Virus record (IMG/VR): IMGVR_UViG_3300025282_000092
Location: 1 to 39,256 of that record
From: a virus
Strand: one strand, 5' to 3'
Length of the DNA stretch: 39,256 bases
Shown here: one piece after another, positions 3,421-39,256 of the stretch
Layout of the letters: each line of letters opens with the position of its first letter
How positions within the stretch are numbered: position 1 is the stretch's first letter
Translations under genes and position numbers: made by a program
The notes under the pieces: generated by a model
Told to the model about the DNA's origin: nothing
Seen by the model: only the letters and a program-made list of their open reading frames with translations
Databases searched by the model: none

Positions 3421-6400
3421 ATGGCACTATACCTCAAAGAGAAGCTTGATATAATACAAAAAATTAGGGACAAATGGGAATCAGATAAAGATATATGGGA
3501 CTCAGGACTTCTTGGGACCCAGATCACAGATATAGAAGTCCCCCTCGACCCCGGCGCCGAGTTTAGACCAGGGTTCCCTAGACAAGTGACGGATTCCAAC
3601 AGCTTTATTTACCAAGTGACAGAAAACAACATTTCTATGGCTAGCATAACACCATTAAGTGTTGACTCTGCAAATTCTGATCCAACTGGTGAAACTGATA
3701 GCAAAAAATCAGAAGTCCAACTCTGGTATTATTATAAATTTGATTGGAGAGGCTATCAAAATATAGTGGGGGATGATGTAGAAGATTATGATTTTAATGG
3801 AGTGCTTACAGATTATTTTAAAAAATTAGCACTAGCTTCAATACCATATGCAGTACGCTTGTGGGGTAAAAAATTTAAACCAGATGTTAATCAAGAAGAA
3901 TGGTATAATAAATATGTACAATTTGGAGATTTTGACGTCAAATCCAGAGTAGACCCTTCCACTGATCTTAAAGATAAAGAACACTTAAGTCAAGTTAATC
4001 CTGGTCTTACATTTTTATTTGGAATGGCACAGAAAGGTTTTAGTGAACTTATTGACGATGATACTGTTGAAATTGATATGGCAGATCTCGCACCAGAAAA
4101 CGCTATTATTGTAAGACTTGACTCAATCGATAAAGAATTTAATAAAATAGCCAGGACATTGAAAATATATCACGGGATTAGAAAAGAAATGGAAACTCCA
4201 TTTGATATTGAACCAATCGAATGTGATTTCGAAAAAGAAGCTGATCTGATAAAAGAGGTTGGATCAGCAGTAAAGAAATTATTAAAAGATTCGGCCGAAA
4301 AAGGCGGCGGAGTATCAAGTGGAGTACTTGGAGACCAACCAGAACATAAGACCTCTTCTCAACTCGAAGCCTTCTTCAAATATCCAGAACTATGGAATGA
4401 TCCTAAAAATATTATTGAAATTGGCATAACAAATAAGTGGGAAGTTGCTTATGTGAGAGAATATGCCCCTGTAGGTACTTTTAGAAAAAATTTAAGCACT
4501 GCTTCCGGCTGGGATGCTGTAGAAACGCTAGGAAAGATTCAACAAGCTAGAATTATTGGAGGAGGATATAGTAAATCACAAAAACAAATGTTTGCTTCTT
4601 TTAAACAACAAGAGGGTGTACGAGATCCAAGAACTGTCGCATTTGTTTCTAGAATGCACGGAAGCAATGGTTTTAATGATGGTCTTAAAACAGAATATAA
4701 TTCAAATCCCCAAACAGGAATTCCTAACCAGCCAATATTGGATTTTATTAAAAAAGTAATATTACCTGATGGATCGACTGTTTCGTGGAAATCAGAGGAC
4801 CCAAAAGCCTGGCAAAAAGCAACAGAAGTTTATCTAAAAAAACATGGAGGCTCTGTTGCTACTCCTAGACAAAGAGCACAAGCTGGTGCCAGATTAAATA
4901 ATCCTAGTTGGGCAGCACAATATGAACAATATAGTAAAAATTGGATTATTAACAAAACAGATCAGTTTTTTGCTAGTTTACCACAAACAAAAGAAAGATT
5001 AAGGATTAACGAAGGTTCACCATATATTCTAGATGCACTTTATACTGACGTTTTAAGTCGAGCAGATGTAAAAAGATTAACAGCAGAAGTAATAAAATGT
5101 TGGCTAGATCCCAATTCATGGCTTGAGCTTGCTTGTAGATATGCAATGAAAGAATTAGGAGTTGATGCCTGGTTTGAACAAATGCAAAAAGATGGCACAA
5201 TGGATAAACTAAAACAAAGTGCCGAAATAGGAAATCAAATCAGCGATTCATTTAATACTATAGCAAGCGAAAAAAGAGTGACCCAAGCTACTTTTGACCG
5301 GCTTGATACAGAAAGAAATAAATATAACAATCAAGGTTTAGAACTATTAACTAAAAGAAAAGCCATAGAAGCAGACCTTAATGTGGCCACAGATTCTGAA
5401 GACAAGAAAAGATTAAGGCAAGAAATAGAATCTATCAATTTTGAATTAAAAGTAGCAGTAGGCAGAAGACGACAAGTTGAAATGGACTCAGGAATAGCAA
5501 GCGTTAATAGGGCAACTGGAGCATGGGTACCAATGACCCCTGAAGGCGCCTCAAGGGCCGCAAAATCGGCCCAAAATATTTCAAACGCAATAATGGATAT
5601 ATCTGATCCAAATTTTAAAAAAGAACTTTGTGCAAACATAATAAGTTATAGTTTAAAAGCAGCACAGATGCTTTATGATTTGTACAGAGTCACGGCGGAA
5701 TACTTTAAAGATGACCCCAATAAAGAAGATGGAAACGACTCTCTAAAACAAGAAAATAGACCTAAAGCTCAAACTGACGATATTGGACTGTATTTTGTAG
5801 AGGCGGTTCGCGCAATTGCGGCGCAAGCTTTGGCAACTACAGTGCTCTTTTTTGTTAGAAAGCTTTTAACTGAATTGGTCGAGGCGTGCCAAAAGCTTAA
5901 GAGCAGTCTATGGGACGATATTAATAAAGAGGATTCAAGAAAAAATGATAAAATTCCTGGGAAGGCTCGGTATAATGATCTACTAGCACAAACTCCATCG
6001 AAAGCTGCACGCGATTTAACAGCAAAGCTGTCTGGCTTCATTGATATAGCTGATGAAGATATTACTACCGATCTTCTTGGTTTAATGGAAGATTTAGAAT
6101 TATTATTGTCTCAACTAGAGATATGCGCTTTAAGCAGAGGCACTGCTACAGTTGAAGTTTTAACAATTATTAAGAACTTGCTACAAATAAGATATAACAA
6201 GCTTTATTTAAATTTGAAAGGCGAAGATAAATCTCTTTCGTTTGCAAGAATTAAAAGCTTTTTTATTAATTTTGAACCTTTGATAAAAACAGAATATTGC
6301 GAGGAGTTACAAAAATCTGATAAACCGTTACAAATTTATCAAGAGTGTCCTCCCTATATTCAAACTTTATGTGGAGATTTATTAATTGGGCATTGTACAA

Positions 6401-9400
6401 ATGAGCAAATTGATAATATTTGCAAAAGAGCTAAAATTGATAGGCTGGACGCTCTTCTTGATTTAATTGATATTGCATATAACCCTGAACGTACAAATAT
6501 ACCTGATCCAGCCGATCCTAGAAGTCCAAATGCAGTGCCACAGGATATGTATCCCAATAATATAATAAATGACATGTTGGCAGATCAAAATTTAAGACCA
6601 GCGGCTAGTGCATTCAAAAGTGAAATGTTTGCTTTTTCAAATAAATTATTTCACGAGGGTACTGCTGGCTTTCCAGCAGTAACAGATGACGATGCAGGAA
6701 AGGTTGCTAAAAGACATGCCAATGCTGCTGAAGGTCCCGATGGTGCTAAGCCATGGTCCGGAAGCCCGGGCGACGATACTGCGAATTTGGTGCAGCCACC
6801 TAAAGAAAAAACGCTATTAAAGCCAATACAGAATTCTTTAATCAGCCCACTTAAATGGGAGCCCGAACCCGGCACTACTAGTCTCAGTAGTTTTAACTTA
6901 CCGCAATCCTTTACCGCAGGCTGGTGGATAAATTGGCAATTAGTTGGTGATGAAACTTCGCAAATTATAAGATTAGGCCGCTTTGGCGACAATCCGAAAT
7001 GGATAAAAGGGCAGCTTACATATCCGATGAGAGAGGGAAAGGTAACTTTTTTACCTGTAGCAAGATTTGATTCATTTTTGAATATTTATGGGACTACCGC
7101 TCCAAAAGTAAAAAATGGAATTTTAGAATTGACTTCTTTTAAAGATAATTCTGGGTGGGCTCAAGGCCCACTTGATGATCATTTTGAAGATTTATTTAGT
7201 TCTTTATCCGCAGAAGAATTTTACGATAAAGTGAATAGTATGTGGCCAGAGTGGTCAGGAAACAGTAATAGTTCTCTTGAGGGATCTGAAAAAGGATTAA
7301 AATTTATTTTTAATTTATTAGTAAAAAACATTGGAAATAGAATTTTTTCTAAAGTATACGAATCTATACTTTTCACACCAGAAGGCAAAGAGACACTTGA
7401 ATCATTTTTTAATAATTTTTTCCCACAATTAGCATTTAATGCAGATCAGAGTTGCGATGTAAAAGAAGTTTCTTTGTTGAAGGTTAATAGTGTAAAAAAA
7501 TATATACAGGATAGGAATAATGATTTAGAAAAAGAACTACATCAGCCAAATTTGAACGAGGAAACCCCAAATTTAGCCAGAGCACAAGCTGAAGGGGCTG
7601 TCATGACATTAATGAGAGTATATGCTTTTGAAACTGCTCTTCGTTTGTTACCCATGCTTCCTATTATAAGAATTAAAGATATGTTAACTTCTGAAATAAT
7701 AATAAATGTTTTATTAGAACACATATTATATGAACTGGCAATGCTAGATTATAAAAAAGTACGTAAAACCTTGTCAAGTAAAAATGCCAAAGACCTTAGA
7801 AACACTAAACCAGTAAAAGGCAATCAGCTTGATCCAAGCGGAGGAAGATTAGAATATACTCAATCTCCTTCAGGCGAAGGAAGATTTGTAGAAGAACCTC
7901 CATGCCCAGCAACTGCCGCAGAAAATGGTAAAGCTTTTGAACCAAAATTTCAGGCACATGTAGTTTATTATGCAAATAATATAATGAAGGGCAGGGTAGC
8001 TAAAAAAGTAGAAGAAGGAGAAGTTTTATTTGATCCGATAACAAAAGAAGAATATACACACTCTGTAGATTATAGCACTGGCATGCCCATAGACATCAAT
8101 CCATATAGTTTAAGTGGCATTTCTTATTTATTAAAAGAACAAATGGCCGAGATCTCTGATTTTCTTGAAAGAGAATTCAATTTCCAGAAAATACCTTTGT
8201 CTAGTGGCGGCACAACAGAAGTAGATATAAAAAGTTTTGAACACTTTTTTCTAGAATCTTTTTTATATAAAGATATGCTAGCCAAAGATAATGCACTTGG
8301 TGGTCACATTGTACACAACGAGGGTTTGGCTATAGGCGACATTCCATGGCAAAGCACACAGCCCATGGCCAAACAAATGCTTGGACCAAAATCCGATTTT
8401 TTTGATTTAATGCCTTCGATTAATAATTTAAGTGACAACTGGCCCACCGAATGGAATATATCATATCCAGAATATATTAAATCTATTTTTGATGACTATA
8501 GCGGTACCGATAAAGAAGATAAGGTATATAAAACCGATATATCGAAAGAACTTGATCAAGGAGGGTTGGAAAGTAACTTAAATTCTCATATAATAATGAA
8601 CCCGCGTTTTTATGAATTAGGGCTAGTTTCTTCGTATTGGCAAAATGAAGAAGTTGTTAATTTGATTGAGAAGGCCAAAGAACTTGCCAGTACAATTATT
8701 TATAATAGCGGCCAAAATATCAATGACGCTGGCGAATGGGTAGAAGTTGAGGTAGATGTTAATAACACACTCCATGTCGACGCGCTACAAAGTATTATAA
8801 ATAAGCTTAAAGAGTTAGGCGTAGTGATTACAGCACCTCCGGAGATTGTTGTTAAAGAAGGTAAGGAAGCTTCCAAATTTGCCTTCATTTATAACGCGGC
8901 TTGGATAACTCCACCGGGATTATCCGAGGAACTCAAGAACTTTTTACCCGAAGGGACTGCTCCACCTGCAGGACAAGTTTTATATGTTTTGACAAATTTT
9001 GCTCGTGAAGCGGGATTTGAAGAGGGTGGATTTATATTAGAACCTTATATCCGCGTTAAACAACATACACCTTTTGAAGAAACTGATTATTTTGAAGCTG
9101 ATCCACAAATTAAGCAAGCCCTAGCAGAAAAGGCATATAAAGACAAATTTGACGAGTATACTGACAATAAAACGTCGCTCCAAGATGCCATGATCTGGGA
9201 AAAGTGTAACGACGGAGGCGCCGGAGGCGCCACTAATGCAGAATACAATGCCTGCTCACAAGCAATAATAGATAATTGGCACTCTACCACACAAATCGCC
9301 GCTCAACAAGCTTATAACAATGTTGTCGACACTCCATTTAAGTTACAATTTGATAAACATTTAGGTGATTTTTGGAAGCCCAAAGGGGCTTATATTAATA

Positions 9401-12400
9401 TAGCCCATTGGTCAAACTCTATGTCTGGAAAAGGTTCAACTACATCGGAGTCTTTAGATCCACTTAAATTGAATTTAAATCCTGAAGGGGCAAAGCGACC
9501 TCACACTGATTGGTTTGATCAGTGGATGTATGGGCTAAGGCTAGTTTATGTTCTTCCACTAAAAACGAATACAACCGATAGCTTTTCAACGGATAATGAA
9601 CTTTATGAGATACCAAGAGATGAGGTTCTAACAGCATTCAATGATTATATTGGAGTTGAGCATATTAATGCGAATGATCCGTGGGATATTTTGAATAAAA
9701 AAGCTTATATTTTACATGAAAGAATTAATTTAGCGACTATTGGTCAAAATAAATTATATTATGAGTTGCTACAACAAAAGAAAATAGAAGAGCTACCGGA
9801 CCTGTCACGAGAAATGGTTTCAGGGCTAGTTGGTCCACCTATTTTTTCTGTGCCGATGTTAGAAGTTGAGGTACCTGTTGGTAGTGTTACATATGATGAA
9901 AAACTTTATGCAAAACAAATAGTTTACAGTGAGGCATATAATGATGCCATAGCCAATGGTAAATCTCCAGATGAAGCAGCAAATGAAGCAGAAATTGCCA
10001 GCAATGATTTTTTTGAAAAAATAAATTCTTCTGTTCCTCTAAACTATTTTACATTTCAAAACTGGAACAATCGAAGCGATTATCCCTTAGAACAGCTTTT
10101 ATGTGCAATGATGAAAAATAAAGAATTTGATTTTTTTACTAAAATTTTCCCGTTAGAAAATTATAAAGCTTTGCTTGGTTTATATTTGTTACTACAAACA
10201 TTTGAAATGAATGAATACCAAGGAGAATATTCTAGTCTTTTCGCGCAAACAAAGGGACAATTAAGACATATTTTTTATTCTAATACATTGGCACACGATC
10301 GTAATACCAATATACCAATAGACAAATCGGAAAATGTACAAGCACAACAAAATGAAGAGGCCCCAGAAGATTGGTGGGCCAATCTCGGAGAACTTTTACT
10401 TGGCACTCCTCCAAATTATGCTAAAATTTTTGCAATGACCCCGATCGGTGTACTAAAAGCAATGGTAACTGTTACTGACCCATCCTGGAAAAATGTTCCA
10501 TGGACGGTACCGGGGATTATTATGCATCTTTTACAGAATAAAGCAGGCGCATTATCTGGACCGTGGTTTTCTAGCGATCAGGACGCGAAACCCTCACAAA
10601 AAGCACTAGTCCCATGCCCAGAACAATTTAGTGCAAAATCTTCTATAGATTTTACCCAGGATGAATTAGACTTCATTGAAATGATGAAGTCTTATGGTCT
10701 TGGATTAGAAGATAGAAATTTTATTCTTTTGACTCCTTATAGACTTCCTACGATCTTAGAAGGCGGGAAGGCAATTAATGAGGAAAGCAATGTTGATTTC
10801 AGTCAAGATCATTATTTTAGTGAATCAGCTTTGTTTAAAGTATTATTATCTGCTTGGAAAAATAAAAAAAGCGAAGAGTTACAGAAAATAAGTGTTATTT
10901 TTAACAATCTAAGAGAATATTACGATGCATCCCTTGTTCTTTTTCAATCTTTTAATGACCATTCTAAAAATTATATGAATCATGCATATAAAGTCTACGA
11001 AGAATATTATAAACCAGCAGGCGCATGGATCGTAGGGACCGATTTTGAAGAGACTTTATTTATTAATTGCAATGAAATTGATGACCTCCGATATAATGGG
11101 TATAACGATGTTAACGATGTTTGTGCAAATAATTTTATGTTTGAAAAGGTAAAGCAACAAGTAAATGCTTTAGAGCTGTTATTTAATACAATATTGTCTC
11201 AAATAGAATTAAACCTTCCTCAGAATTCTTTAGAGCTTATGGGACCAACAGATATGGTTTTAATTGATGAAAGTGACGAGAAAGTACCATTATTAAGCAA
11301 TACTATTTCTCCTATAGATCAAGAAAAACTCTTCCCATATGGGACATCTTTAAATGAAGATCAGGTTATTGAACTTATTAACAATGAAGATTCGCTTAGC
11401 TATGCAATACCTAGTTATTTGATATCTGAAAAACAATTGGCATATAAAATATCTCATATTTTGACTAATTTAGTTGGGCATAATAAGAAACTATTTGAAT
11501 TTAAAGGTTCTGGTATCAACGCCGCGTGGCAGGGATTGGTGATGAGCCCCCTCACACATGAGAACTGGTCAACTGCTAAAAAAACAATTAATTTTAATTC
11601 TGTTGACGGCCACGATTTGAGAACTTTTTGGCTAATGGGGAACGATTGGGATGAGCTTATCAAAGGCCCGGGCAATGGCAAACCCATGTGGCATTTTCAA
11701 CTTGGTAGCGTACACCCAAATGCAAAGCCACATTCAGCAGATTTTATGATGAAACATCTTTTTAAAGCAGAGGAATATACCAATTACCCAACAAATAAAC
11801 TTAACAGCTTTGTTAATCTTTATAATCTTACTAAAGAATCCTTTAGTTACTCTAACAATTTAGTTGGTTTTCATCTTGATGCTTTGACTAAAGACCCAAC
11901 CCATAGCAATGATCTACTATTCTCTTATTATGATGATTTTGATAGTTATACAAAAGATAAAATGAACTACCCTACGGATAAAACTATACAAGATGTGATA
12001 CAACATACTCAAGAGGGCTATGAAATTTCATTTTACGATATGTATAATTTAGGCCACCATTTGGATATTGGTAAATATTGGACAGAATCATGGTTTAGCC
12101 CATTGGTTGTTAAAAATCGTAAAGATGTCCCCGAGGTTTATTTCGGTGGCGGCCCGGGCAAAAAACCTGGGTTCTACCTTGAGCTAGGTGAACATACGCC
12201 TGAATTTTATTGGGAGTTTGCTGATTTAGAACATGAGTATTTTTCCTATGCGGGGGATATTACTGACGATGCATTTCTCAAGTACCAGCCGGGTTATTCG
12301 AACGCTATCGACAAATCAGGCCTAGTTTTGGATCATGTTGCATGGTATTACCCAAAGCTAGCCGCTGTTATTGCTGAAATGATGTATAAATTATATAACA

Positions 12401-12711
12401 TTGCATTACGAACAACTTGTATAGAAGTTTTTGAAAGTAAAGTGCCTGAAGCTGGAGATCTGTGGCACGCAGAAATAAATATTAAATCCATGCGTTCGAA
12501 CGAATCTTTTTATTACGGCTATCCTTTGTTAAAGTCGCAGAGCCAGCCTAAGCCGCATGAAGGCTTCAGCTATGACGTGCAAACCGACTACAAGACGTAT
12601 GGAGCAGAATACACATCTCAACCCAAAGTAGCACCTTATCCACTAGTAAAACTTATAGTAAATAAAAAAGCAACTAGAAAGGATCTAATTGATCGTGAAT
12701 TTATATTTTAA
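3421..12711 (+). CDS. Giant virion protein (3096 residues), unknown function
   Basis: One uninterrupted 9.3-kb frame, with ATG preceded by TTAGGATAA 8 bp after the previous stop. I recognise no enzyme domain. Visible features are a charged coiled-coil-like stretch at residues ~617-695, an amphipathic hydrophobic helix at ~789-826 (AIAAQALATTVLFFV core), a low-complexity Gly/Pro/Asp linker at ~1087-1127 whose DNA is strikingly GC-rich, and a hydrophobic helical segment near residues ~1400-1435. There is no signal peptide. Its place between the spike-like gene and gp25 suggests a baseplate or tail component. A tape measure is conceivable from length alone, but the sequence looks globular and aromatic-rich, and tape measures normally precede the hub genes. 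The last codons and stop lie inside the first unit of a 36-bp tandem repeat. Certainty that it is a gene is high; its function is unknown. Confidence 0.85.
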   Translation: MALYLKEKLDIIQKIRDKWESDKDIWDSGLLGTQITDIEVPLDPGAEFRPGFPRQVTDSNSFIYQVTENNISMASITPLSVDSANSDPTGETDSKKSEVQLWYYYKFDWRGYQNIVGDDVEDYDFNGVLTDYFKKLALASIPYAVRLWGKKFKPDVNQEEWYNKYVQFGDFDVKSRVDPSTDLKDKEHLSQVNPGLTFLFGMAQKGFSELIDDDTVEIDMADLAPENAIIVRLDSIDKEFNKIARTLKIYHGIRKEMETPFDIEPIECDFEKEADLIKEVGSAVKKLLKDSAEKGGGVSSGVLGDQPEHKTSSQLEAFFKYPELWNDPKNIIEIGITNKWEVAYVREYAPVGTFRKNLSTASGWDAVETLGKIQQARIIGGGYSKSQKQMFASFKQQEGVRDPRTVAFVSRMHGSNGFNDGLKTEYNSNPQTGIPNQPILDFIKKVILPDGSTVSWKSEDPKAWQKATEVYLKKHGGSVATPRQRAQAGARLNNPSWAAQYEQYSKNWIINKTDQFFASLPQTKERLRINEGSPYILDALYTDVLSRADVKRLTAEVIKCWLDPNSWLELACRYAMKELGVDAWFEQMQKDGTMDKLKQSAEIGNQISDSFNTIASEKRVTQATFDRLDTERNKYNNQGLELLTKRKAIEADLNVATDSEDKKRLRQEIESINFELKVAVGRRRQVEMDSGIASVNRATGAWVPMTPEGASRAAKSAQNISNAIMDISDPNFKKELCANIISYSLKAAQMLYDLYRVTAEYFKDDPNKEDGNDSLKQENRPKAQTDDIGLYFVEAVRAIAAQALATTVLFFVRKLLTELVEACQKLKSSLWDDINKEDSRKNDKIPGKARYNDLLAQTPSKAARDLTAKLSGFIDIADEDITTDLLGLMEDLELLLSQLEICALSRGTATVEVLTIIKNLLQIRYNKLYLNLKGEDKSLSFARIKSFFINFEPLIKTEYCEELQKSDKPLQIYQECPPYIQTLCGDLLIGHCTNEQIDNICKRAKIDRLDALLDLIDIAYNPERTNIPDPADPRSPNAVPQDMYPNNIINDMLADQNLRPAASAFKSEMFAFSNKLFHEGTAGFPAVTDDDAGKVAKRHANAAEGPDGAKPWSGSPGDDTANLVQPPKEKTLLKPIQNSLISPLKWEPEPGTTSLSSFNLPQSFTAGWWINWQLVGDETSQIIRLGRFGDNPKWIKGQLTYPMREGKVTFLPVARFDSFLNIYGTTAPKVKNGILELTSFKDNSGWAQGPLDDHFEDLFSSLSAEEFYDKVNSMWPEWSGNSNSSLEGSEKGLKFIFNLLVKNIGNRIFSKVYESILFTPEGKETLESFFNNFFPQLAFNADQSCDVKEVSLLKVNSVKKYIQDRNNDLEKELHQPNLNEETPNLARAQAEGAVMTLMRVYAFETALRLLPMLPIIRIKDMLTSEIIINVLLEHILYELAMLDYKKVRKTLSSKNAKDLRNTKPVKGNQLDPSGGRLEYTQSPSGEGRFVEEPPCPATAAENGKAFEPKFQAHVVYYANNIMKGRVAKKVEEGEVLFDPITKEEYTHSVDYSTGMPIDINPYSLSGISYLLKEQMAEISDFLEREFNFQKIPLSSGGTTEVDIKSFEHFFLESFLYKDMLAKDNALGGHIVHNEGLAIGDIPWQSTQPMAKQMLGPKSDFFDLMPSINNLSDNWPTEWNISYPEYIKSIFDDYSGTDKEDKVYKTDISKELDQGGLESNLNSHIIMNPRFYELGLVSSYWQNEEVVNLIEKAKELASTIIYNSGQNINDAGEWVEVEVDVNNTLHVDALQSIINKLKELGVVITAPPEIVVKEGKEASKFAFIYNAAWITPPGLSEELKNFLPEGTAPPAGQVLYVLTNFAREAGFEEGGFILEPYIRVKQHTPFEETDYFEADPQIKQALAEKAYKDKFDEYTDNKTSLQDAMIWEKCNDGGAGGATNAEYNACSQAIIDNWHSTTQIAAQQAYNNVVDTPFKLQFDKHLGDFWKPKGAYINIAHWSNSMSGKGSTTSESLDPLKLNLNPEGAKRPHTDWFDQWMYGLRLVYVLPLKTNTTDSFSTDNELYEIPRDEVLTAFNDYIGVEHINANDPWDILNKKAYILHERINLATIGQNKLYYELLQQKKIEELPDLSREMVSGLVGPPIFSVPMLEVEVPVGSVTYDEKLYAKQIVYSEAYNDAIANGKSPDEAANEAEIASNDFFEKINSSVPLNYFTFQNWNNRSDYPLEQLLCAMMKNKEFDFFTKIFPLENYKALLGLYLLLQTFEMNEYQGEYSSLFAQTKGQLRHIFYSNTLAHDRNTNIPIDKSENVQAQQNEEAPEDWWANLGELLLGTPPNYAKIFAMTPIGVLKAMVTVTDPSWKNVPWTVPGIIMHLLQNKAGALSGPWFSSDQDAKPSQKALVPCPEQFSAKSSIDFTQDELDFIEMMKSYGLGLEDRNFILLTPYRLPTILEGGKAINEESNVDFSQDHYFSESALFKVLLSAWKNKKSEELQKISVIFNNLREYYDASLVLFQSFNDHSKNYMNHAYKVYEEYYKPAGAWIVGTDFEETLFINCNEIDDLRYNGYNDVNDVCANNFMFEKVKQQVNALELLFNTILSQIELNLPQNSLELMGPTDMVLIDESDEKVPLLSNTISPIDQEKLFPYGTSLNEDQVIELINNEDSLSYAIPSYLISEKQLAYKISHILTNLVGHNKKLFEFKGSGINAAWQGLVMSPLTHENWSTAKKTINFNSVDGHDLRTFWLMGNDWDELIKGPGNGKPMWHFQLGSVHPNAKPHSADFMMKHLFKAEEYTNYPTNKLNSFVNLYNLTKESFSYSNNLVGFHLDALTKDPTHSNDLLFSYYDDFDSYTKDKMNYPTDKTIQDVIQHTQEGYEISFYDMYNLGHHLDIGKYWTESWFSPLVVKNRKDVPEVYFGGGPGKKPGFYLELGEHTPEFYWEFADLEHEYFSYAGDITDDAFLKYQPGYSNAIDKSGLVLDHVAWYYPKLAAVIAEMMYKLYNIALRTTCIEVFESKVPEAGDLWHAEINIKSMRSNESFYYGYPLLKSQSQPKPHEGFSYDVQTDYKTYGAEYTSQPKVAPYPLVKLIVNKKATRKDLIDREFIF

Positions 12712-17435: not shown

Positions 17436-20400
17436 ATGGACACAAAGAAATATTTTGATGACCCACAAACTATAGTAACTTCAACAGATATTGAATCTTT
17501 GGCCAAAGAAGTTGAATCTCACAACTATATGGAAGCCTATGTCGAGAGAAGAGATAAATTTATTCCTCGAATTGATTTTACGTCTGCTTCTAATTTTGCC
17601 TTTTTTGGCTCGGCAGAACAATATTACAATGACGCAATTAAGAGAATCTATCAAACATATCCATATGATGGCTCTTTATATGAGCGAACTGCGTGGATTT
17701 TCTCTTCATCTTATTTAGATAACCATATTTTTGATCAAGAATATCCCAGAACAAATGGATTTATTCGTCTTGCTGCGCGAGATAGTGCAACTCCATACGA
17801 TGGCGCCGACTCAAATAATTATTTTAGTTCTTCCACTCCAGAATATATTTTATTTAGAGGTGGCCCACATCCAAGTTCTCGCAGTACGGGCAAAGCAATA
17901 ACAGATACTGCTGGAACTTATAAAAGCGGCTATTCAAATATTCTATCTCAATCTCAAAATAGAGAATCTAATTTAAAAATTGATGGTGCGGACGGAAATA
18001 CTGTTGAATTTTGGATGAAAAAAGAAGATATCACTTCTGGTAAACGAGAAGTCATATTTGACACTTATACTGCAAACGCCACAGAAACACAAGATGGATA
18101 TGGCCGTATGACTATAGAAATTCTTGGAACGACTCCAGGATTTCAAGTTACATATATAAGCGGTAGTAGTGGTTTTCAAACGGCTTCTATTGGCCAAGGA
18201 ATAACAAGTAATTTTAGTGATGAGGAATGGCATCACTATGCATTTACATTTGCAAACTCTGGAAGCAATTTGCAAGCAAAATTATACGTTGATGGTAGAT
18301 GCAATAATGCAATTATTGGCAGCGCTACCAATTTAATTACGGAACCATCAAGCGCAACCATTGATTACGTAAGCGGAGGTATGCTTGCTACAATTGGTGG
18401 TCTTGCAACTTCTCCGCGCGGAGATAGTACACCACAATTAGGTTGGGCGCCTCTTTCTGCTTCATTGGATGAGTTTAGATTTTGGAAAACAAAAAGAGAT
18501 GCTCGGCAAATTGGACGACATTGGTTTACACAAGTAGGTGGCGGAACAAACACTGATGATGCGAATACACAGTTAGGTGTTTATTATAAATTTAATGAAG
18601 GAATAACAACCAATTCTTCTTTAGACTCAACTGTATTAGATTATTCTGGACGTATAAACAACGGATCTTGGACAGGATATACTTCCGGCCACAGAGCAAC
18701 AGGCTCAGCAATGGTTATAAGCAATCTAGCAACTGCTTCGTTCGAATTTAAGGATCCTATTTTATATTCAAGTCATCCAAATGTTAATGGCTATTTGACT
18801 TCTTCTTTAGAAAAAGGAAAGTATCACGATTTAAGCAACAATGCCTCCATTTATAACTCATTACCAAATTGGATTATTGACGAAGACAGTGAAAATGGGT
18901 ATGTGCTAAAAAAATTAGTGCAAATAATGGCCAGCTATTTTGATACTTTACAGTTACAGGCACAATCATTGCCTTTGTTGCAAAACATATCTTATCCAAG
19001 CGGAAGTCAAAAAGCGCATCCTTTTATTAGACAAGCTTTAGAATCAAAAGGTTTTGTAACTTCAGAAATATTTGCAGATGCTACTATATTAGAACAATTT
19101 TTAAACCAAGCAGATAAAGAACTTTTTGAAGAAAAACTTTATAATATTAAAAATCAAATTTATCAAAATATTTATAATTCATTATCGCGTATAAATAAAA
19201 CAAAAGGAACAGAGAAATCTTTTAGGAATCTGATTCGTTGTTTTGGAATAGATGATGAAATATTAAAATTAAATTTATATGGTAACCAAGTTGATTACCC
19301 TCTAGAAGAAAGCTTTTCTTCTACTACCGTTAAGAAAAATTGTATAGATTTTAACCATCCGGATAGATACGCCGGGACAGTTTATCAATTTACATCTAGT
19401 GCAAATGCAAATTCAGTATCTTTTATTTCTGGCTCGCAAGGTAACACAATAGCGCCGCTGGATCGCGACGGGAAAGATTTTGCAATACCATTTACAACTG
19501 AAGCAGAAGTTATATTTCCCAAAAAGAGATCCTCAATATATGACAGCCAATATACATATTCAGATCTTTCAGCGTCTCTTTTTGGTATGCACACAGCCAG
19601 ACAAACAAATTATGAAGAAGTACCTAGCAATGTGGAAAATTATAATGATTTAGCTTGGCACAAGCACGATGTTGCAAACTTCCAAGTTTATGTATGTCGC
19701 AAAACATTAAATGAAAATATAACCCATTCAAATGGTCATACCAATAGAGATGCATTTTTCTTATTAACGGGTTCATCAAACGGAATAGCCTTAAAATTAA
19801 CAAGTAGTCTGTTTTTTGATGTTTATGATGATGAAAAATGGAATTTTGCTGTTCGTATAAAACCAGAAAAGCACCCATTAGCAAATTATATATCCGGTAC
19901 TCTTTCCGAAATGGATGAAAAGATGGAGGCTGTTGATAACCCCCTTGCTTATGTAATAGAATTTTATGGAGTCAACAATAATTTAGATGTTGTAAATAAT
20001 GAATTCTTATTAACTGGTACGCTAACTAAAAATCAAGGAGAACACTTTTTATCTAGTTCAAAGCGTGTATATGCTGGTGCGCACAGAACAAACTTTACAG
20101 GATCTGTATTAACCAAGACTGATGTAAGATTCTCTTCTTTAAGATGTTGGCTAGATTATCTAGATAACAAAACAATTCAAGCACACGCAAGAGATCCAAA
20201 AAATATTGGTAGAACAAATCCATATAAGAGCGCTTACTTGTTTGAAGCGCTCCCAACCGATGGCAGTGATCTGTATAGCTCACGACCTTATGTCCCTCAA
20301 ATGGAAACTCTAGCTTTAAATTGGGACTTTACAGGATTAACTGGATCAAGCCCAGCTAGTAGTGATGCATATTACGGTGGTGCACCTAAAAATGCCAATT

Positions 20401-23400
20401 TTCCAGTTAAAGACATGTCTTCTGGCTCCGTTGATATAACTTCCAGTTATGGCTGGGTAAGTGAAGTTACACATCTTCAACATACGGGTAAAGGAGATTT
20501 CTTTTTACCATCTAAAAAAGACGTCATAAACAAAGAATATATTTATTCAGCGAAACAAAACCTACCAGAAAATTTACATTCATCAGATACTATTAATATT
20601 GTAACAACAGATGATGCTGTTTTCACAAGACAAACATTGCCCACTACACATTTCTTTACAATTGAAAAAAGCATGTATCAAACAATTTCTGAAGAGATTT
20701 TAAAATTCTTTGCGACTATTGTTGATTTTAATAATTTAATTGGAGAACCCATTAATCGTTATAGGCAAGATTACAAAGCTATAGCTAAATTAAGACAATT
20801 ATTTTTTGAAAGAAAAACTGAGGATACACCAGAGATTATAAATCCTGATTTCGAAAAATATATTGATTATTATCGATGGATAGATCAATCAATTTCCAAA
20901 ATGATACAACAAATTATACCTGCATCAGCTCGATTTTCAGAAGATATTAGAAACATGATCGAAAGTCATATATTGGAAAGAAACAAATATTGGTCAAAAT
21001 TGCCTATCGTTGAAGAAAAGGTTAAACACACTAAAGTACCGCTAGAAGCTCCTGCTTCTGGTCAAGAACAAAAAACATCAAGCACTTTCTATACGCAAGA
21101 ATCTGGAATCCCAAAGAAAACTGTACATCACAACACTGCGTATGGTTCACCAGATCTTGAAAAACAGCTAAAAGAAAAAGCGCCTATCCAAATGGGTGTG
21201 CGACTTTCAAAAAAAGAAAATTGGACAAAAGATAATGAAAACATAAACACATTAGCATGGATACGGGCAGACAGAGATGAGCCCGCAGTTTCAACTGGTA
21301 ATAGCAGTATAGATGACGAGAGAAAGAAAATATTTGATACAACAATTAAAACACGCCAAAGGATAAATCGTACCCCAGCCAGGTTATTTGCACATGCCCT
21401 TAGACCAATACATGGTGGAGTTAATAACTTAAAAAATAAAAAACCAGATTTGTTTAGAACTTTAATAAACAGTATTACTGGTTCTGAAAAACGAGGCCTA
21501 GAAATAACCACAGGAAGTGTACAAGAAAATGTCATAGTAACAGAATTTAAAGAACTTTTCTATCCAGAAGATAAAAAAAGAAAATTTTTAACTACCTCTA
21601 GAATAAAAAGCACCAGGCCTGACGCTGATACTGGAGAACGTGATTATTTTGGAAATTCGTATAGCAAATGGACTGTCCCTTTTACTATTATTAGTTCTTC
21701 TGTCGAAACAGGGTACAATTATAAAATTTCTACTCATTTTTCTGGTGGTGTAGATTTTGCCAACCTACATCAAGATATATATGGCCCTCATTACGAAGTC
21801 CCAATGCAAGGGCCTTTCACAGAAAAATGGGTCGGAGGTTTTCCATATAGGCATGTTTGGTCACAATTTAGTGGTAGTGCTAAAGTTGGTTCTTCTTTAG
21901 ATACTAGAACAAATAGAGTAGAAGGCTGGAGACTAGTATTTAAAGAAGATTCGAAGGGTAAATATGCAGCGCTTGTTTCACCCATATCTTCTTCTGTTCA
22001 GAATCCTCGTTCGATGATTTGGGAAGGTCCAAAGCGACCTGTTAATGTTGCAAACATTCGAATGACTACTGGTTCTGGAGGATATAGAGATCCAAAACAT
22101 ACAACAAAAATAGGAAACTATAGATTTGATTATAATATTATTTCTACAACTGGTAGAAAAATTAATAATAGGTATTTTGTAAAAAATCAAGGCATCGATT
22201 TTACTTGGCACGATTATCAAAAACCAGATTCGTGGGCACTACCAATATTGGGTGTATCAAACTTTACAACTATAGATCGATCGGTGAGCGGTTCAAATGA
22301 TTTTGTTTTTGTTAATAGATTTAACGCTCCAGGTGGCCCGGAAACAATGTGCGAATCCTTTTTAGATTTAGAATCTGGAGAATATTCGGTATATAATTGT
22401 CTTAACTATAGAAACTTATCAGTTCGATTGCCGCTCAAAGAATATTTGACAAATCATTCAAATAAATTTGGATTTTGGAGCGACACACAATATTCTGCTA
22501 GTTGGCAAACTGCTATCGATAGCGGGTTCAAACCAGCAGGATCCTATGCAGGGACAGCTACCAATGAAACTTCAGGACATTATCGAGGCACCAGTACATC
22601 TAATCAGCCAATGTCTTCTTATCATAATGTTAATAGAAACTCACGAAGAAGAATAGAACTTGAAGGTGCCTCAAGCACTAATACTGTTACAGGAACTGTT
22701 CATGATAATTATTGGATTCAACACCCAATCCCGAGAACGGGTATACAATATAGTTGGATATCTGCTAGTTTAATAACGGGCTATAGCGGATCCGCTTTAT
22801 ATGGCTATGAAAAATCAAGATCTAATGAAGGCGGGAGGTTTTATCCAAAAGCATCAACAACACTTACATTTATCAGCGCTAGCGAATATGGTAGTTATCT
22901 TCGGGAAAGCGTAGGGCTTCGCTATTTTGGGACAACAAAAGAAACTCTTGATGCTGCTGCTGGTTTAAGTGGGTTTGTTTTTACAGACTTTGCTGGTTTA
23001 AATTTAAATGTTGTTGATCCAATAACCGCTTCTACAAATACGATTGGACATGCGTCTGGGATAGGACTGAACTCTTATTCTAACACTGGTTTTATTACAA
23101 GCGTAAATCCAGAAACGGATGCAAGGCCTGGTACGCATGCTATGTTAAACGCTATTTTGTTAAATAGAAATGGACCCTATCAACACCCAAGCTGGAAACA
23201 AATGAGACAAGCAAATCATCCAATTGCTAGAAATGAAAGAAAAAATAGCATACTCTCATTTATGTATCATGAAGAGCTTAATAGATTTACGGAATCATTA
23301 GCGACACCTCGTTATAAACCGTTGGTGCATGTTTTTAAAGATGGAGTGATAAAACACACGTATGCAAACAACTTAGCTAATTTTGCAAATGTTGAAGTTC

Positions 23401-26400
23401 GTGATCAATTAAATATTGTTATGCCCAAAGGCGATCAACCTTATGATCATATAAAAGATCTTTATTTAAAAGATATTCTTTCTTTGAAACCGGAATTGAT
23501 TAGTTTCTATTATAGAGAAATGCTATATCCTAGAGAAATTAATGTATATCTGAAAAAAGCAAGATTACGTGAAAATTATGTTGTGGGTTTTTGGAGAGGA
23601 ACAAGATCAGATAGGACTAAAAATAGCGAAACAAATTCGCAAGGCCAAACAATTCTTAAGCAAAGTATATGGCCCTTAGATGCTAGAGAAACTTTTGCAA
23701 CTGTCGCGGCAAGAGGAAAAGCTAGTTCTGCCGGAAACGACGGAGCAGGAGAACTACTAAACAATTATACAACCTATCATGGCCAAGCAGGGCCCTCTTC
23801 TGATGCGCATCCAAAGATTATCCCCGCTGCTTTGTATAGTAGGCCTGTTAGTGCTAGTGTGGCTGACGGAGATCTATTATATGGAGATACACTATGGGAG
23901 TCTGGTGATCCGTTTTATGATTCATATGCTGCATATTCCGACGAAATCAAAAGAGCAGGGCAAACCTTTTCTATAAATTCTGAATTTAGAATAAGCGAGC
24001 ATATGGAATATTATTTAGATGAGAAAAATGGTGATTTCTTTGCAGATCGCGAAGGATTTTTAACATGTACTGGCTCAAGCTATGCCGATAGCACGGTAGA
24101 TAATTTTTTTAAAACCTATTCGCATACTGATTTCTTAAAATATTTTTCTGCTATGTATGAGGACCATGATGGAATATTAGATCCAGCAAAAGTAACTTTT
24201 ACATGTAATGGCATAATGAAATTATTACCTTATAAAGGATTTTACCCAGCAGACAGAACATTACAATTGGCAACGCTATTCAGTCAATCATATAACTCAA
24301 CGGAGTTTACAACAAGTTCTTACGGCGATAATGCTAAAAGAAGAATTTCTTTAACACCATTTTTTGCGCCTGGAATCTTATATAATTCAATTAAATCTGG
24401 AATTGCTGTTGATTATCCGATATATACAAAACAACCCGGATCTACAGCTGCAAAGGGAGCAATTGATAGAGATGTGGTATATACTGTAGGTACTGGTGGT
24501 TCTGCCGCCAATTCAGATGTATATCGGCTTTCTGCATCATTTGACTATAGATTGCCTTTTGACAGCTTAGTCCGTCCAGAAGATTATATTGGAAACGGCA
24601 GATATATTTACGAAGCAGAACCAGATCCAACAGCGCGAGTTAGCGGATCCGCCACTACAAACGTGGCAACAAGTAGTATTAAATTAGATCTTGTTAAAAG
24701 TGACACGTATAAATTAGCAATGCATAATTTCCTTGCTACTTCTATCGATTTATTTTTGAAAAATGGTGAAGTATCTACTCTTGTTTCTTCTCAAATGAAA
24801 GATATTTATATTGTTGATAGAACTCAAAGTAGTTATAAAATGAGATTTTATTTATCAGACCATCAAGATATTTCCACAACTAATAGTAGAAACTTTTCCA
24901 TGTACAATCGTCAAACTTCTTTTGGCCCAACAGTTAATGCACCGGGTAATGTAGGTGGATATGCTCCATTTACGCCACCTTATTATCACAACGACACACA
25001 GACTGGTTACTCTTATATTGAATATGCATTTACACCATGGAAACACACGGTTGCAGACAAATATGGTACGGAAGGTACAGATGAATATACATTAGATGAA
25101 ATTATATCAAACTCTACAATTACAGCTTTTAGAAGTGTTGGTAATTCACAATTATCTGGTGCTGCTTCTGGCAATAATTATGTACAAGATATTGACATGA
25201 TGAGCTTAACAGCTTCTATTAATATTTTTCAAAAAGATGCGCATCTTATTGCACAGCCTAGATTTGAAAGCCCTATATTTAATTTTACAAATGTTACAAA
25301 AACTTCTCCTTCTAGTGGTGATGCATCGACAAAAGGAATTTGGCATCAAAAGGGTGTCTACGAAACTGATAATTCAAAAGGAATATTTTTTGGCGCCCTT
25401 GACGTTGAAGGCAACGCCTCATTGGCAGATTTAATTACAGTTGAAAAAGGTCTTAAAAAAATAGGTACTTTACCTGATGATGGCGAAAAAATAATAAGAG
25501 AAGCCATTGTTGCTGTACCAGTTATTAAAAAATATAATAATAGAACCAAAAAAGTTGAAACAAAATTTATTAATATAAATAAAAATATGGTTAAAAGGGC
25601 TGTATCTTCTGTTCTTTCTGATCAGCCATCTCAGAATGTTTCTCCTTCTGTATTTAATATGGTAAAATCAATGCTTCGCTATGTTATTCCTCCAAAGTTC
25701 GATTTTTTAACTCAATTGAAAAAGTTTGGTACTAAGAGATATAGACCGTTTGCTATGTACTTCTTTGAGTTTGAACATGAATTTTCACAAGAAGATATTG
25801 CAAACATATGGCAGAATTTACCACCAGTAATAAGTTCATCGTTTAAAAAAGAACAAGTTACGATTTGTCACTCTTTAGAACGCGGCGAACTACTAACTAT
25901 AAAGGAATTAAAAAATCCAGATTTGCATTGGATGGTTTTTAAGGTTAAACAAAAAGCAAAATGGAATTATTTTGATAAAGTTATTGATCTTGCTGGCAAT
26001 TTACCACCTAGACCAGATGCAGGAATAGCCCCTATTAGTGTGCAACTAGGACGTGAGGCCGAAGCACCACTAACGACCCATCAGTTAGCACCGGACGGAG
26101 GATCACTTATTCCACCAGGAGGGCTAAAGGGTTTTGATTTTATTAGGACTGGCACACGTGATAATCTAGAAGACATTGTACAATATGCGCGCCAAGAAAG
26201 CGACGTAGCTTCTGGATATGGTTTGGATTATAGTTATAATTGGCCATACGATTTTTGTTCGTTGGTAGAACTAATTAAACTAGATACAGAAATCCATTTA
26301 GGTGGAAATGATGCTATACAGGTATACCCACCAATAGTGGACAGTGATGGAGAATCTTTAGGTAGTGATAAAAGAACTATAGTAACTACTGGTTTGGGTG

Positions 26401-26609
26401 GAGAGATATTAGGTGCCAAAGAAGCAACATCAGATGATACAAGAGAAGAACTATTATCCCAAGTTAATATGACTGGCCCACAAGCAACTGCGAAACCAAC
26501 TGGAGTAAAGTTAGCACTTATAGACGGTCGAGACCAACAAGGTGAAGGGAATGAAGACGCTGGAAATCAAAAATCTGGTGGAACAAAAAAATTAGAGCTT
26601 TTGGATTAG
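17436..26609 (+). CDS. Giant virion protein (3057 residues) with two LamG/concanavalin-like regions
   Basis: A single 9.2-kb frame whose ATG lies 4 nt after the previous stop, in the context TAAATTTATGG, with no strong Shine-Dalgarno; coupling to the gene before is likely. Residues ~183-395 form a LamG-like jelly roll: NTVEFWMKKED, DEEWHHYAFTF with LYVDG downstream, LDEFRFWKTKRDARQI, then LDYSGRINNGSW. Residues ~720-930 look like a second, more divergent lectin-type region (WNFAVRIKP; RVYAGAHRTNFTGS; VRFSSLRCWLDYLDNKTI). Near the C-terminus, ~2755-2800, FGTKRYRPFAMYFFEFEHEF is followed by NIWQNLPP. The rest is Tyr/Ser-rich and beta-like, without known motifs. Such lectin folds in virion proteins usually bind glycans or make structural contacts, so a fibre network or host-adhesion role is inferred. 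I recall related long proteins in uncultured marine myophages. Confidence 0.82.
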   Translation: MDTKKYFDDPQTIVTSTDIESLAKEVESHNYMEAYVERRDKFIPRIDFTSASNFAFFGSAEQYYNDAIKRIYQTYPYDGSLYERTAWIFSSSYLDNHIFDQEYPRTNGFIRLAARDSATPYDGADSNNYFSSSTPEYILFRGGPHPSSRSTGKAITDTAGTYKSGYSNILSQSQNRESNLKIDGADGNTVEFWMKKEDITSGKREVIFDTYTANATETQDGYGRMTIEILGTTPGFQVTYISGSSGFQTASIGQGITSNFSDEEWHHYAFTFANSGSNLQAKLYVDGRCNNAIIGSATNLITEPSSATIDYVSGGMLATIGGLATSPRGDSTPQLGWAPLSASLDEFRFWKTKRDARQIGRHWFTQVGGGTNTDDANTQLGVYYKFNEGITTNSSLDSTVLDYSGRINNGSWTGYTSGHRATGSAMVISNLATASFEFKDPILYSSHPNVNGYLTSSLEKGKYHDLSNNASIYNSLPNWIIDEDSENGYVLKKLVQIMASYFDTLQLQAQSLPLLQNISYPSGSQKAHPFIRQALESKGFVTSEIFADATILEQFLNQADKELFEEKLYNIKNQIYQNIYNSLSRINKTKGTEKSFRNLIRCFGIDDEILKLNLYGNQVDYPLEESFSSTTVKKNCIDFNHPDRYAGTVYQFTSSANANSVSFISGSQGNTIAPLDRDGKDFAIPFTTEAEVIFPKKRSSIYDSQYTYSDLSASLFGMHTARQTNYEEVPSNVENYNDLAWHKHDVANFQVYVCRKTLNENITHSNGHTNRDAFFLLTGSSNGIALKLTSSLFFDVYDDEKWNFAVRIKPEKHPLANYISGTLSEMDEKMEAVDNPLAYVIEFYGVNNNLDVVNNEFLLTGTLTKNQGEHFLSSSKRVYAGAHRTNFTGSVLTKTDVRFSSLRCWLDYLDNKTIQAHARDPKNIGRTNPYKSAYLFEALPTDGSDLYSSRPYVPQMETLALNWDFTGLTGSSPASSDAYYGGAPKNANFPVKDMSSGSVDITSSYGWVSEVTHLQHTGKGDFFLPSKKDVINKEYIYSAKQNLPENLHSSDTINIVTTDDAVFTRQTLPTTHFFTIEKSMYQTISEEILKFFATIVDFNNLIGEPINRYRQDYKAIAKLRQLFFERKTEDTPEIINPDFEKYIDYYRWIDQSISKMIQQIIPASARFSEDIRNMIESHILERNKYWSKLPIVEEKVKHTKVPLEAPASGQEQKTSSTFYTQESGIPKKTVHHNTAYGSPDLEKQLKEKAPIQMGVRLSKKENWTKDNENINTLAWIRADRDEPAVSTGNSSIDDERKKIFDTTIKTRQRINRTPARLFAHALRPIHGGVNNLKNKKPDLFRTLINSITGSEKRGLEITTGSVQENVIVTEFKELFYPEDKKRKFLTTSRIKSTRPDADTGERDYFGNSYSKWTVPFTIISSSVETGYNYKISTHFSGGVDFANLHQDIYGPHYEVPMQGPFTEKWVGGFPYRHVWSQFSGSAKVGSSLDTRTNRVEGWRLVFKEDSKGKYAALVSPISSSVQNPRSMIWEGPKRPVNVANIRMTTGSGGYRDPKHTTKIGNYRFDYNIISTTGRKINNRYFVKNQGIDFTWHDYQKPDSWALPILGVSNFTTIDRSVSGSNDFVFVNRFNAPGGPETMCESFLDLESGEYSVYNCLNYRNLSVRLPLKEYLTNHSNKFGFWSDTQYSASWQTAIDSGFKPAGSYAGTATNETSGHYRGTSTSNQPMSSYHNVNRNSRRRIELEGASSTNTVTGTVHDNYWIQHPIPRTGIQYSWISASLITGYSGSALYGYEKSRSNEGGRFYPKASTTLTFISASEYGSYLRESVGLRYFGTTKETLDAAAGLSGFVFTDFAGLNLNVVDPITASTNTIGHASGIGLNSYSNTGFITSVNPETDARPGTHAMLNAILLNRNGPYQHPSWKQMRQANHPIARNERKNSILSFMYHEELNRFTESLATPRYKPLVHVFKDGVIKHTYANNLANFANVEVRDQLNIVMPKGDQPYDHIKDLYLKDILSLKPELISFYYREMLYPREINVYLKKARLRENYVVGFWRGTRSDRTKNSETNSQGQTILKQSIWPLDARETFATVAARGKASSAGNDGAGELLNNYTTYHGQAGPSSDAHPKIIPAALYSRPVSASVADGDLLYGDTLWESGDPFYDSYAAYSDEIKRAGQTFSINSEFRISEHMEYYLDEKNGDFFADREGFLTCTGSSYADSTVDNFFKTYSHTDFLKYFSAMYEDHDGILDPAKVTFTCNGIMKLLPYKGFYPADRTLQLATLFSQSYNSTEFTTSSYGDNAKRRISLTPFFAPGILYNSIKSGIAVDYPIYTKQPGSTAAKGAIDRDVVYTVGTGGSAANSDVYRLSASFDYRLPFDSLVRPEDYIGNGRYIYEAEPDPTARVSGSATTNVATSSIKLDLVKSDTYKLAMHNFLATSIDLFLKNGEVSTLVSSQMKDIYIVDRTQSSYKMRFYLSDHQDISTTNSRNFSMYNRQTSFGPTVNAPGNVGGYAPFTPPYYHNDTQTGYSYIEYAFTPWKHTVADKYGTEGTDEYTLDEIISNSTITAFRSVGNSQLSGAASGNNYVQDIDMMSLTASINIFQKDAHLIAQPRFESPIFNFTNVTKTSPSSGDASTKGIWHQKGVYETDNSKGIFFGALDVEGNASLADLITVEKGLKKIGTLPDDGEKIIREAIVAVPVIKKYNNRTKKVETKFININKNMVKRAVSSVLSDQPSQNVSPSVFNMVKSMLRYVIPPKFDFLTQLKKFGTKRYRPFAMYFFEFEHEFSQEDIANIWQNLPPVISSSFKKEQVTICHSLERGELLTIKELKNPDLHWMVFKVKQKAKWNYFDKVIDLAGNLPPRPDAGIAPISVQLGREAEAPLTTHQLAPDGGSLIPPGGLKGFDFIRTGTRDNLEDIVQYARQESDVASGYGLDYSYNWPYDFCSLVELIKLDTEIHLGGNDAIQVYPPIVDSDGESLGSDKRTIVTTGLGGEILGAKEATSDDTREELLSQVNMTGPQATAKPTGVKLALIDGRDQQGEGNEDAGNQKSGGTKKLELLD

Positions 26610-38439: not shown

Positions 38440-38982
38440 ATGATTTTAGGATTAGATATAAGCACTTCGATCACTGGAGTTTCCATTGTTGATCGGAATA
38501 ATGAATTAATATACTGTGAAGCTTGGAGAACCGACAAGCCAAAGCTATCAGTTTATGAAAAATTCGATATTATTAAAGATAAAATTTGTTATATAAAATC
38601 ACAATATCCAATTGAAAGAATTTATGTTGAAGAACCTTTAGGTATGTTTGCTGCTGGAAGAAGTTCTGCACAAGTTATTGCAAAGATTCAAAGATTTAAT
38701 GGCGTTGCATGTTGGATATTAAGAGAAGTCTTTAATTTAGAACCAGAGTATATTAATGCTTCTACAGCAAGAAAAATATGCGGTATAAAAATCAGAAGAG
38801 GGCAGAAGGCAAAAGAAATTGTATTGAAACATGTACTTGAAAATGAAAAAACTTTTAAAGCAGAGTATACCAAGAAAGGCAATCCTGTAAAAGGTACATA
38901 CGATAAAACTGATTCTTTGGTAATTGCTAAAGCTGGATACTATTTAAGTAAGAAGAAGGAAAACTCTTATGAACATGACTAA
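38440..38982 (+). CDS. RuvC-like Holliday junction resolvase
   Basis: 180 residues, close to bacterial RuvC in length. The RNase H-like fold is marked by GLDISTS at residues 4-10 (Asp6), IYVEEPLG at 61-68 (Glu64 or Glu65), and YDKTDSLVIAKAGYYL at 154-169 (Asp155 and Asp158). These four acidic positions correspond to the Asp-Glu-Asp-Asp metal-binding set of RuvC nucleases. GRSSAQVIAKIQRFNGVACW fits the helix after strand 4. It should cleave four-way and other branched junctions, resolving recombination or replication intermediates before packaging, the task done in T4 by the unrelated endonuclease VII (gp49). There is no clear Shine-Dalgarno; the ATG is 4 bp after the previous stop, so translation is probably coupled. 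Its last 14 nt overlap the next small ORF. Confidence 0.88.
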   Translation: MILGLDISTSITGVSIVDRNNELIYCEAWRTDKPKLSVYEKFDIIKDKICYIKSQYPIERIYVEEPLGMFAAGRSSAQVIAKIQRFNGVACWILREVFNLEPEYINASTARKICGIKIRRGQKAKEIVLKHVLENEKTFKAEYTKKGNPVKGTYDKTDSLVIAKAGYYLSKKKENSYEHD

Positions 38983-39049
38983 AAGTCAATTAAGACAATT
39001 GATTACAGAGGCTCTTGATGAAATGCTTCAAGCAATGGAAGAAGGGTGA
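38969..39049 (+). CDS. 26-residue TKSQLR-motif peptide, ended by an in-frame TGA
   Basis: The ATG overlaps the end of the resolvase gene by 14 nt and is preceded by AAGAAGGA, a good ribosome binding site. The peptide starts MNMTKSQLRQLITEALDEML and is an amphipathic helix. The same TKSQLR(Q/N)L pattern begins the next ORF. I recall this N-terminal motif on many otherwise unrelated proteins of uncultured marine phages. If the TGA at 39047-39049 is read through, the frame continues 28 codons, mostly acidic, to a second TGA at 39134-39136. Whether the short form is complete, truncated by mutation or recoded cannot be told here. Confidence 0.55.
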   Translation: MNMTKSQLRQLITEALDEMLQAMEEG

Positions 39050-39059
39050 CCAGATTTAG

Positions 39060-39076
39060 TTCGTGGGGCCCACGAA
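39060..39076 (+). other. Strong hairpin between the two TKSQLR ORFs
   Basis: TTCGTGG (39060-39066) and CCACGAA (39070-39076) form a perfect 7-bp stem with a GGC loop. It starts 10 nt after the TGA of the 26-residue ORF and ends 19 nt before the next ATG. No T-run follows, so it does not look like an intrinsic terminator. Confidence 0.6.
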
Positions 39077-39095
39077 GAAAAGGAAGAGGAAGAAG

Positions 39096-39256
39096 ATGAC
39101 AAAGTTTACAAAATCACAGTTAAGAAATCTAGTTGAAGAATTGGTAAGTGAACAATTAAATGAAGCTGCCGAATCTCTCTCTCCCTTTCTTGAAAAGCCC
39201 GGCTGGGAAGTTAGAGACCACACGGAATTTCGCCGCAGAATTAGCGATATTAACAC
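39096..39256 (+). CDS. TKSQLR-motif protein, 3' end cut by the window
   Basis: The ATG is preceded by a long purine-rich stretch (AAAAGGAAGAGGAAGAAG) that includes good ribosome binding sequence. The frame stays open to the window end, giving 53 residues so far. It starts MTKFTKSQLRNLVEELVSEQ, aligning with the preceding 26-residue peptide over about 12 residues. After residue ~27 it becomes Ser/Pro-rich and then charged (WEVRDHTEFRRRISDIN). The product is unknown. The helical start followed by an unrelated body suggests a detachable N-terminal tag. Confidence 0.65.
   Translation, partial: MTKFTKSQLRNLVEELVSEQLNEAAESLSPFLEKPGWEVRDHTEFRRRISDIN

Follow-up and report, generated by a model that had tools for sequence, protein, structure and literature searches.

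What is the meaning of two adjacent open reading frames that begin with the same short helix and then diverge? The question is raised by the 3′ end of IMG/VR record IMGVR_UViG_3300025282_000092, a 39,256-base virus fragment that was analysed over its whole length and is called here the window. An earlier note on this DNA had proposed that the shared helix is a capsid-targeting tag, removed by a prohead protease of the T4 gp21 type. By its gene content, the window covers tail and baseplate genes of a contractile-tail phage, with a gp25-like protein (PF04965), a gp6-like wedge protein and a RuvC-like Holliday junction resolvase (38440..38982, + strand; phrog_159, E 8e-12). The resolvase gene is outside the tag system and serves as a syntenic anchor. 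Two very large proteins are also encoded in the tail region (3421-12711, 3096 residues; 17436-26609, 3057 residues). The start of the first ORF, ORF1 (38969..39049, + strand; MNMTKSQLRQLITEALDEMLQAMEEG, followed by a stop codon), overlaps the 3′ end of the RuvC-like gene. The second, ORF2, starts with an ATG at 39096, just downstream of a Shine-Dalgarno-like purine run, and is open at the window end (39096..39256, + strand). Both ORFs of the tandem described in the earlier note are real; the description has to be corrected in that ORF1 is a complete miniprotein of 26 residues, made essentially of the tag only, and ORF2 is truncated by the window end. The visible part of ORF2 comprises 53 residues (MTKFTKSQLRNLVEELVSEQLNEAAESLSPFLEKPGWEVRDHTEFRRRISDIN); its body is retained, with the remainder lying beyond the window.

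The helix corresponds to residues 1-16 of ORF1 (38969..39016, + strand) and to residues 3-17 of ORF2 (KFTKSQLRNLVEELV; 39102..39146, + strand), the equivalent of the latter in the relative L002 being LTKSQLRGLVENLVDESL. TKSQLR is common to both ORFs, after which the sequences diverge. With a matrix built from marine tags, ORF1 scores 37.9 and ORF2 19.7, despite ORF2 being one residue out of register. The best score in about 1.07 million windows of reversed reading frames is 13.9 (without the M position), and nothing scoring above 18 was found with this matrix in 0.99 Mb of random viral contigs. Thus, the likeness is not due to chance and the shared starting helix is confirmed. At the same place, L002 encodes a 172-residue protein that starts with MNVTKNQLRQLITEVLKE and ends with VLDTLEEG before the stop codon, both as in ORF1. 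Hence, ORF1 of the window is devoid of about 146 body residues, in frame. ORF1 is one of twelve tag-only peptides of 23-42 residues, the eleven others being found in related contigs. From these comparisons, ORF1 would be a tag-only peptide that has lost its cargo, perhaps a core peptide. A GTG frame at 39046-39099 (MTRFSSWGPRRKGRGRR) was rejected as a gene; it is not conserved and L002 has a stop after FSS.

The helix, hereafter tag A, has the consensus MK[LI]TKxQLKQIIKEEL, then a floating [LI]xE, and the helix of ORF1 fits it. It starts at least 311 dereplicated proteins of at least 45 residues in viral contigs. The collection was made with a degenerate DNA pattern (at least 120 stretches in viral contigs) and completed with loci fetched later; the pattern fixes residues 1-5, 8, 12 and 14 in one gene per locus, so that conservation at these positions is partly by construction. 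The carriers are uncultivated, mainly marine, T4-like phages. The bodies behind tag A can be as short as a few residues or exceed 1,000, and for the most part resemble neither one another nor any Pfam family. When 138 tag A proteins were aligned, only the N-terminus was in common (mean column identity 4%), and searches of these 138 proteins with Pfam and PHROGs identified almost no bodies. Near-complete contigs carry 2 to 15 tag A genes, commonly in tandem runs (L083, L054 and L028 for example). Among paralogues of one genome, 44% of the codons for identical residues differ synonymously, which places the constraint on the peptide itself. The search for other proteins starting with the motif, suggested in the earlier note as a check, thus had a positive outcome, related phages having many of them. 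Tags are scarce in the named isolates of the group (none in RM378, a weak one in immuto, a single 25-residue peptide in Mel-JY01), and this was counted against capsid targeting. No occurrence of the tag DNA pattern was found in 84,980 bacterial and archaeal genomes. A tblastn search of the named-phage collection with the bare 22-residue consensus, a query probably masked by the low-complexity filter, gave no match.

Some tagged proteins have other features. Many of them carry further internal tag-like helices with LxE, and extra tag-like helices occur inside the chain or at the C-terminus in L089, L112, L067, L085, L050, L182 and L176. Cys-rich, very basic domains (CTRIAKRKYDVWPSAYASGAVVRC...), possibly DNA-binding, are observed in tagged proteins of L172 (5648-6460), L048 (8424-9815) and L130 (6122-7069). 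DUF6321 forms the end of the tagged protein L150:9460-10884; many cyanophages also have this domain, and in S-B43 its annotation is that of a structural protein.

The gp21 protease of T4 cuts after L/I-x-E (PMC9026906), and the specificity of the S77 proteases of the present phages was assumed from T4. In searching for such a site behind tag A, proteins were chosen by residues 1-16 only and the test was confined to residues after 16. The [LI]xE triplet was observed 189 times at residues 19-32, versus 109 expected from the columns (z 10.3), and the other [LI]-to-E lags of 1, 3, 4 and 5 gave z values of -4.8, 0.3, -1.1 and -1.0, respectively. The enrichment persists when each locus contributes a single protein (z 6.5). 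Column shuffles gave 87 ± 6 proteins with a site (maximum 108) versus 172 observed. There was no excess when D, K, Q, N, S, A or G was tested in place of E at P1, nor when V, M, F, A or T was tested in place of L/I at P3. Asn is enriched 5.5-fold at P2 and Ala 2.2-fold at P1′, Gly also being enriched after the site.

In the window, the I-T-E triplet followed by Ala at residues 12-14 of ORF1 (39002..39010, + strand) fits the gp21 motif and could be cut. The same triplet, ITE-A, is contained in T4 IPI (MKTFKEFTSTTTPVSTITEA). ORF1 also has LDE-M, and the lack of a late LxE at its residues 19-26 was counted against capsid targeting. In tag A as a whole, the IxE at residues 12-14 is near-invariant and is mostly followed by Glu, which by expectation from T4 would be an unusual P1′ residue for gp21; this too was counted against the proposal. 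Because the position-14 triplet is near-invariant, it does not lend itself to a covariation test, and the site that has statistical support is at residues 19-27. The cleavage site envisaged in the earlier note is therefore upheld as regards the enrichment of L/I-x-E behind the tag and the LNE of ORF2, the support being displaced from the ITE position to the later one. ORF2 carries the candidate triplet L-N-E followed by Ala at residues 21-23 (39156..39164, + strand), the most favoured late-site type, and would be a tagged protein of the predicted capsid-targeted kind.

The gp21-like protease whose presence had been suggested as a check was indeed found. Of the 30 tag contigs, 20 encode Peptidase_S77 (PF03420, T4 gp21 family). 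Among them is every one of the ten contigs that reach 128 kb, a size class absent from the control set and hence without size-matched control. In random viral contigs of 41-84 kb, S77 was seen in 1 of 21 (Fisher 7e-6 overall, 0.005 when size-matched). Tag contigs without S77 mostly also lack a gp23-type capsid gene, so that they are probably fragments missing the head region; the exceptions are G032, with a capsid gene at its very start and the upstream part cut off, and G034, with only weak capsid-like pieces. The window is itself a fragment, and its closest relatives, G004 and G006, carry S77 (E 1.7e-30 in the closest one). S77 of G006 (80% identical) begins 16.6 kb downstream of the RuvC-like gene. 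By synteny with these relatives, the S77 gene of the window phage would be located about 16.6 kb beyond the window end. In G004 and G006, the tail genes are followed by RuvC, a tagged 88-residue gene, replication genes, TerL, portal, a 1071-residue tagged protein, S77, a 140-residue core protein, scaffold and MCP. A T4-like head cluster with TerL, portal, core genes, S77, scaffold and gp23-type MCP in order was found in G004, G006 and G008, which share the RuvC locus of the window; it is absent from the window fragment.

The order in T4 is gp20, gp67, gp68, gp21, gp22, gp23. Thus, tagged genes beside S77 occupy the slot of the T4 prohead-core genes 67/68/22. A tagged gene directly flanks S77 in six of eight near-complete tag genomes (0.57 expected, P=3e-6), in a test that counts both tag A and the second tag described below, as well as immediate neighbours only, a choice made after the second tag had been found. 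With tag A alone, the distance from S77 to the nearest tag gives a modest combined p of 0.018 over the eight genomes. The conserved 140-residue protein downstream of S77 has a similar starting helix, clearest in G012 (MKKSELKSLIKECIKEVIFEEG, score 30.0) and lower elsewhere. The layout in G001, the window's fullest relative, was counted against capsid targeting: the genes adjoining S77 do not reach the score threshold, and both tag A genes are remote from it.

Other observations concern the same region. The 1071-residue tag A protein just upstream of S77 (L226:2337-5552, that is G006 22337-25552) has a second copy of the tag near residue 544, and no Pfam or PHROG match was found for it. A small basic gene adjoining the protease and the core gene, inside the head cluster, encodes a homologue of ribosomal protein S21 (PF01165, E 7.6e-10; L226:7066-7299 in G006, 22183-22410 in Mel-JY01), which is present in most of the tag genomes examined for the S77 neighbourhood. 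S77 is part of a 559-residue frame with two separate matching stretches in G015 (74605-76284), and of a 646-residue frame in G027.

A second N-terminal tag, tag B (MKLLLENWRKFLNE), is found in the same genomes as tag A. Its pattern is [WY][RKQ]x[FY][LI]xE after a short lead; in 1,889 genes, it begins at one of the first 10 residues in 24 cases, versus one case in reversed proteins. In T4 IPIII, targeting is directed by residues 4 and 7, and processing by residues 8 and 10 (PMC9026906). The spacing of tag B is that of Y4-F7-I8-E10 in IPIII and also that of MKTYQEFIAE, the proven targeting sequence of T4. E is at the expected position in 62% of the dereplicated cases, versus 8-17% at neighbouring positions. 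Tag B genes are near tag A genes more often than by chance (P 0.006). Their bodies include NUDIX (E 1e-16), a zeta-toxin-like P-loop kinase (E 2e-11) and a cytidylyltransferase-like domain, and one body weakly matches Pfam ART-PolyVal (E 6e-4). In at least four cargo families, the N-terminus is tag A in one phage, and members from another phage start with tag B or a close variant of it. For instance, a kinase-like cargo carrying tag A in L048 (10813-11892, - strand) and L083 (8476-9621, + strand) has a relative in G001 (9258-10193) that starts with MKLILENWRNFLNEQ, a tag B. The cargo displays a Gly-rich loop and the motifs VLKIF, DVHxxN and IFDF. It has no Pfam match and its AlphaFold prediction has a mean pLDDT of 36; a kinase function would be a guess from these motifs.

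The shared tag, the presence of S77 in the same genomes, the neighbourhood of this protease, the enriched [LI]xE and the exchange of tags between homologous cargo together lead to the reading of tag A as a capsid-targeting propeptide removed by the S77 prohead protease. Every sequence-based test being favourable, the interpretation of the earlier note is supported, and we consider it very likely. In such a mechanism, the amphipathic N-terminal helix would bind the assembling prohead core and bring the attached protein inside. S77 would then cut after the Glu of Leu/Ile-x-Glu at or just behind the helix, at residue 14 and/or at residues 19-27. The cut would free the mature protein inside the head, and at least some of the mature proteins may be expected to be ejected into the host together with the DNA, to which the effector-like bodies behind tag B point indirectly. 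Tag A would thereby act as a reusable address for up to 15 proteins in one genome, alongside the T4-IP-like tag B. More broadly, we lean towards the view that uncultivated far-T4-like phages have two interchangeable N-terminal codes, the new A and the T4-like B, by which a large and rapidly evolving repertoire of proteins, numbering up to about two dozen in one genome, is brought into the head. If so, the injected arsenal of these phages would be readable directly from sequence.

Other explanations may be envisaged. In the first, the tagged proteins would be scaffold-like parts of the prohead core, digested at maturation like gp67, gp68 and gp22, and the tag would mean "join the core" only. 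The location of tagged genes in the gp67/gp68 slot agrees with this, as do the similar N-terminus of the 140-residue protein beside S77, the internal tag-like helices with LxE and the existence of tag-only peptides. However, tag genes are also present in distant clusters, where they encode enzyme-like (kinase-like) bodies and one with DUF6321. In relatives of such cargo, the N-terminus is tag B, elsewhere found on NUDIX, zeta-toxin-like and ART-like bodies. Delivery fits these enzyme-like proteins better than scaffolding, and a role limited to the core appears unlikely, though worth keeping in mind. In a second model, the helix would be a docking peptide for a target other than the head, such as the membrane, the host RNA polymerase or a replication complex, and the link with S77 would be a by-product of T4-likeness. 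The tag is indeed amphipathic and charged, and some tagged genes are far from head genes (G001, G011). Yet docking predicts neither the gp21-specific LxE spacing, nor the adjacency to S77, nor the swap with a T4-IP-like tag. Moreover, the T4-like C48C1 and RM378, scanned nearly or fully, have an annotated head protease of the S77 kind and no tag, so that the tag does not simply go with being T4-like; this second model is thus quite improbable. Finally, a functionless relic of recent gene duplication or of a mobile 5′ gene segment, as tandem arrays of tagged genes might suggest, is disfavoured and highly improbable in the face of the synonymous divergence between paralogues of one genome, the unrelated bodies and an LxE that floats but is kept.

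If the capsid-targeting reading is right, a simple N-terminal signature would single out, among the many uncharacterised small genes of abundant marine phages, those whose products enter the head and are probably delivered at the very onset of infection. The proteins bearing it would be the likeliest to counter host defence. The principle of capsid targeting, worked out mainly in T4, would also extend to a large uncultivated group having a second, unrelated code.

How does tag A compare with known systems? In the phiKZ-type giant phage SPN3US, gp53 and gp54 have an identical 15-residue N-terminus, cut after Glu by the prohead protease (PMC5694885). As in tag A, a conserved N-terminus is thus found on otherwise diverged proteins, with a Glu cleavage motif, which in the case of tag A is predicted. 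However, the phiKZ-type motif is A-x-E or S/A/G-x-E, the propeptides often exceed 100 residues and the protease is strongly diverged; the passages of PMC5694885 consulted describe no comparably wide use of one short tag. Phage-injected enzymes are known, T4 Alt, an ADP-ribosyltransferase, being the classic example (PMC5512222). Phage polyvalent proteins and the Dar proteins of P1, for which packaging in the head and injection have been predicted or shown, contain ART domains (PMC5512222), and the weak ART-PolyVal match of one tag B body provides a link with them. They differ in being large and multidomain, and the passages of PMC5512222 consulted describe no shared short N-terminal label. The exact tag strings were absent from the open-access literature searched, and none of the reports found on capsid targeting sequences deals with this phage group, as judged by title and abstract.

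In T4, a capsid targeting sequence (CTS) is carried by the internal proteins IPI, IPII and IPIII and by Alt, and is cut by gp21. Tag A resembles it as a short N-terminal propeptide on unrelated proteins, with L/I-x-E at its end, S77 in the genome and a prohead-core neighbourhood. It differs by its greater length (a helix of about 16 residues and a supported site at 19-27), by little sequence identity, by its presence on up to 15 genes per genome and by its use together with tag B. The arrangement of the T4 CTS, with aromatic residues at i and i+3, I/L at i+4 and E at i+6, is found in tag B and not in tag A. Since the aromatic pair is missing, tag A would work like a CTS without being by sequence a member of the T4 CTS family, to which tag B is much closer.
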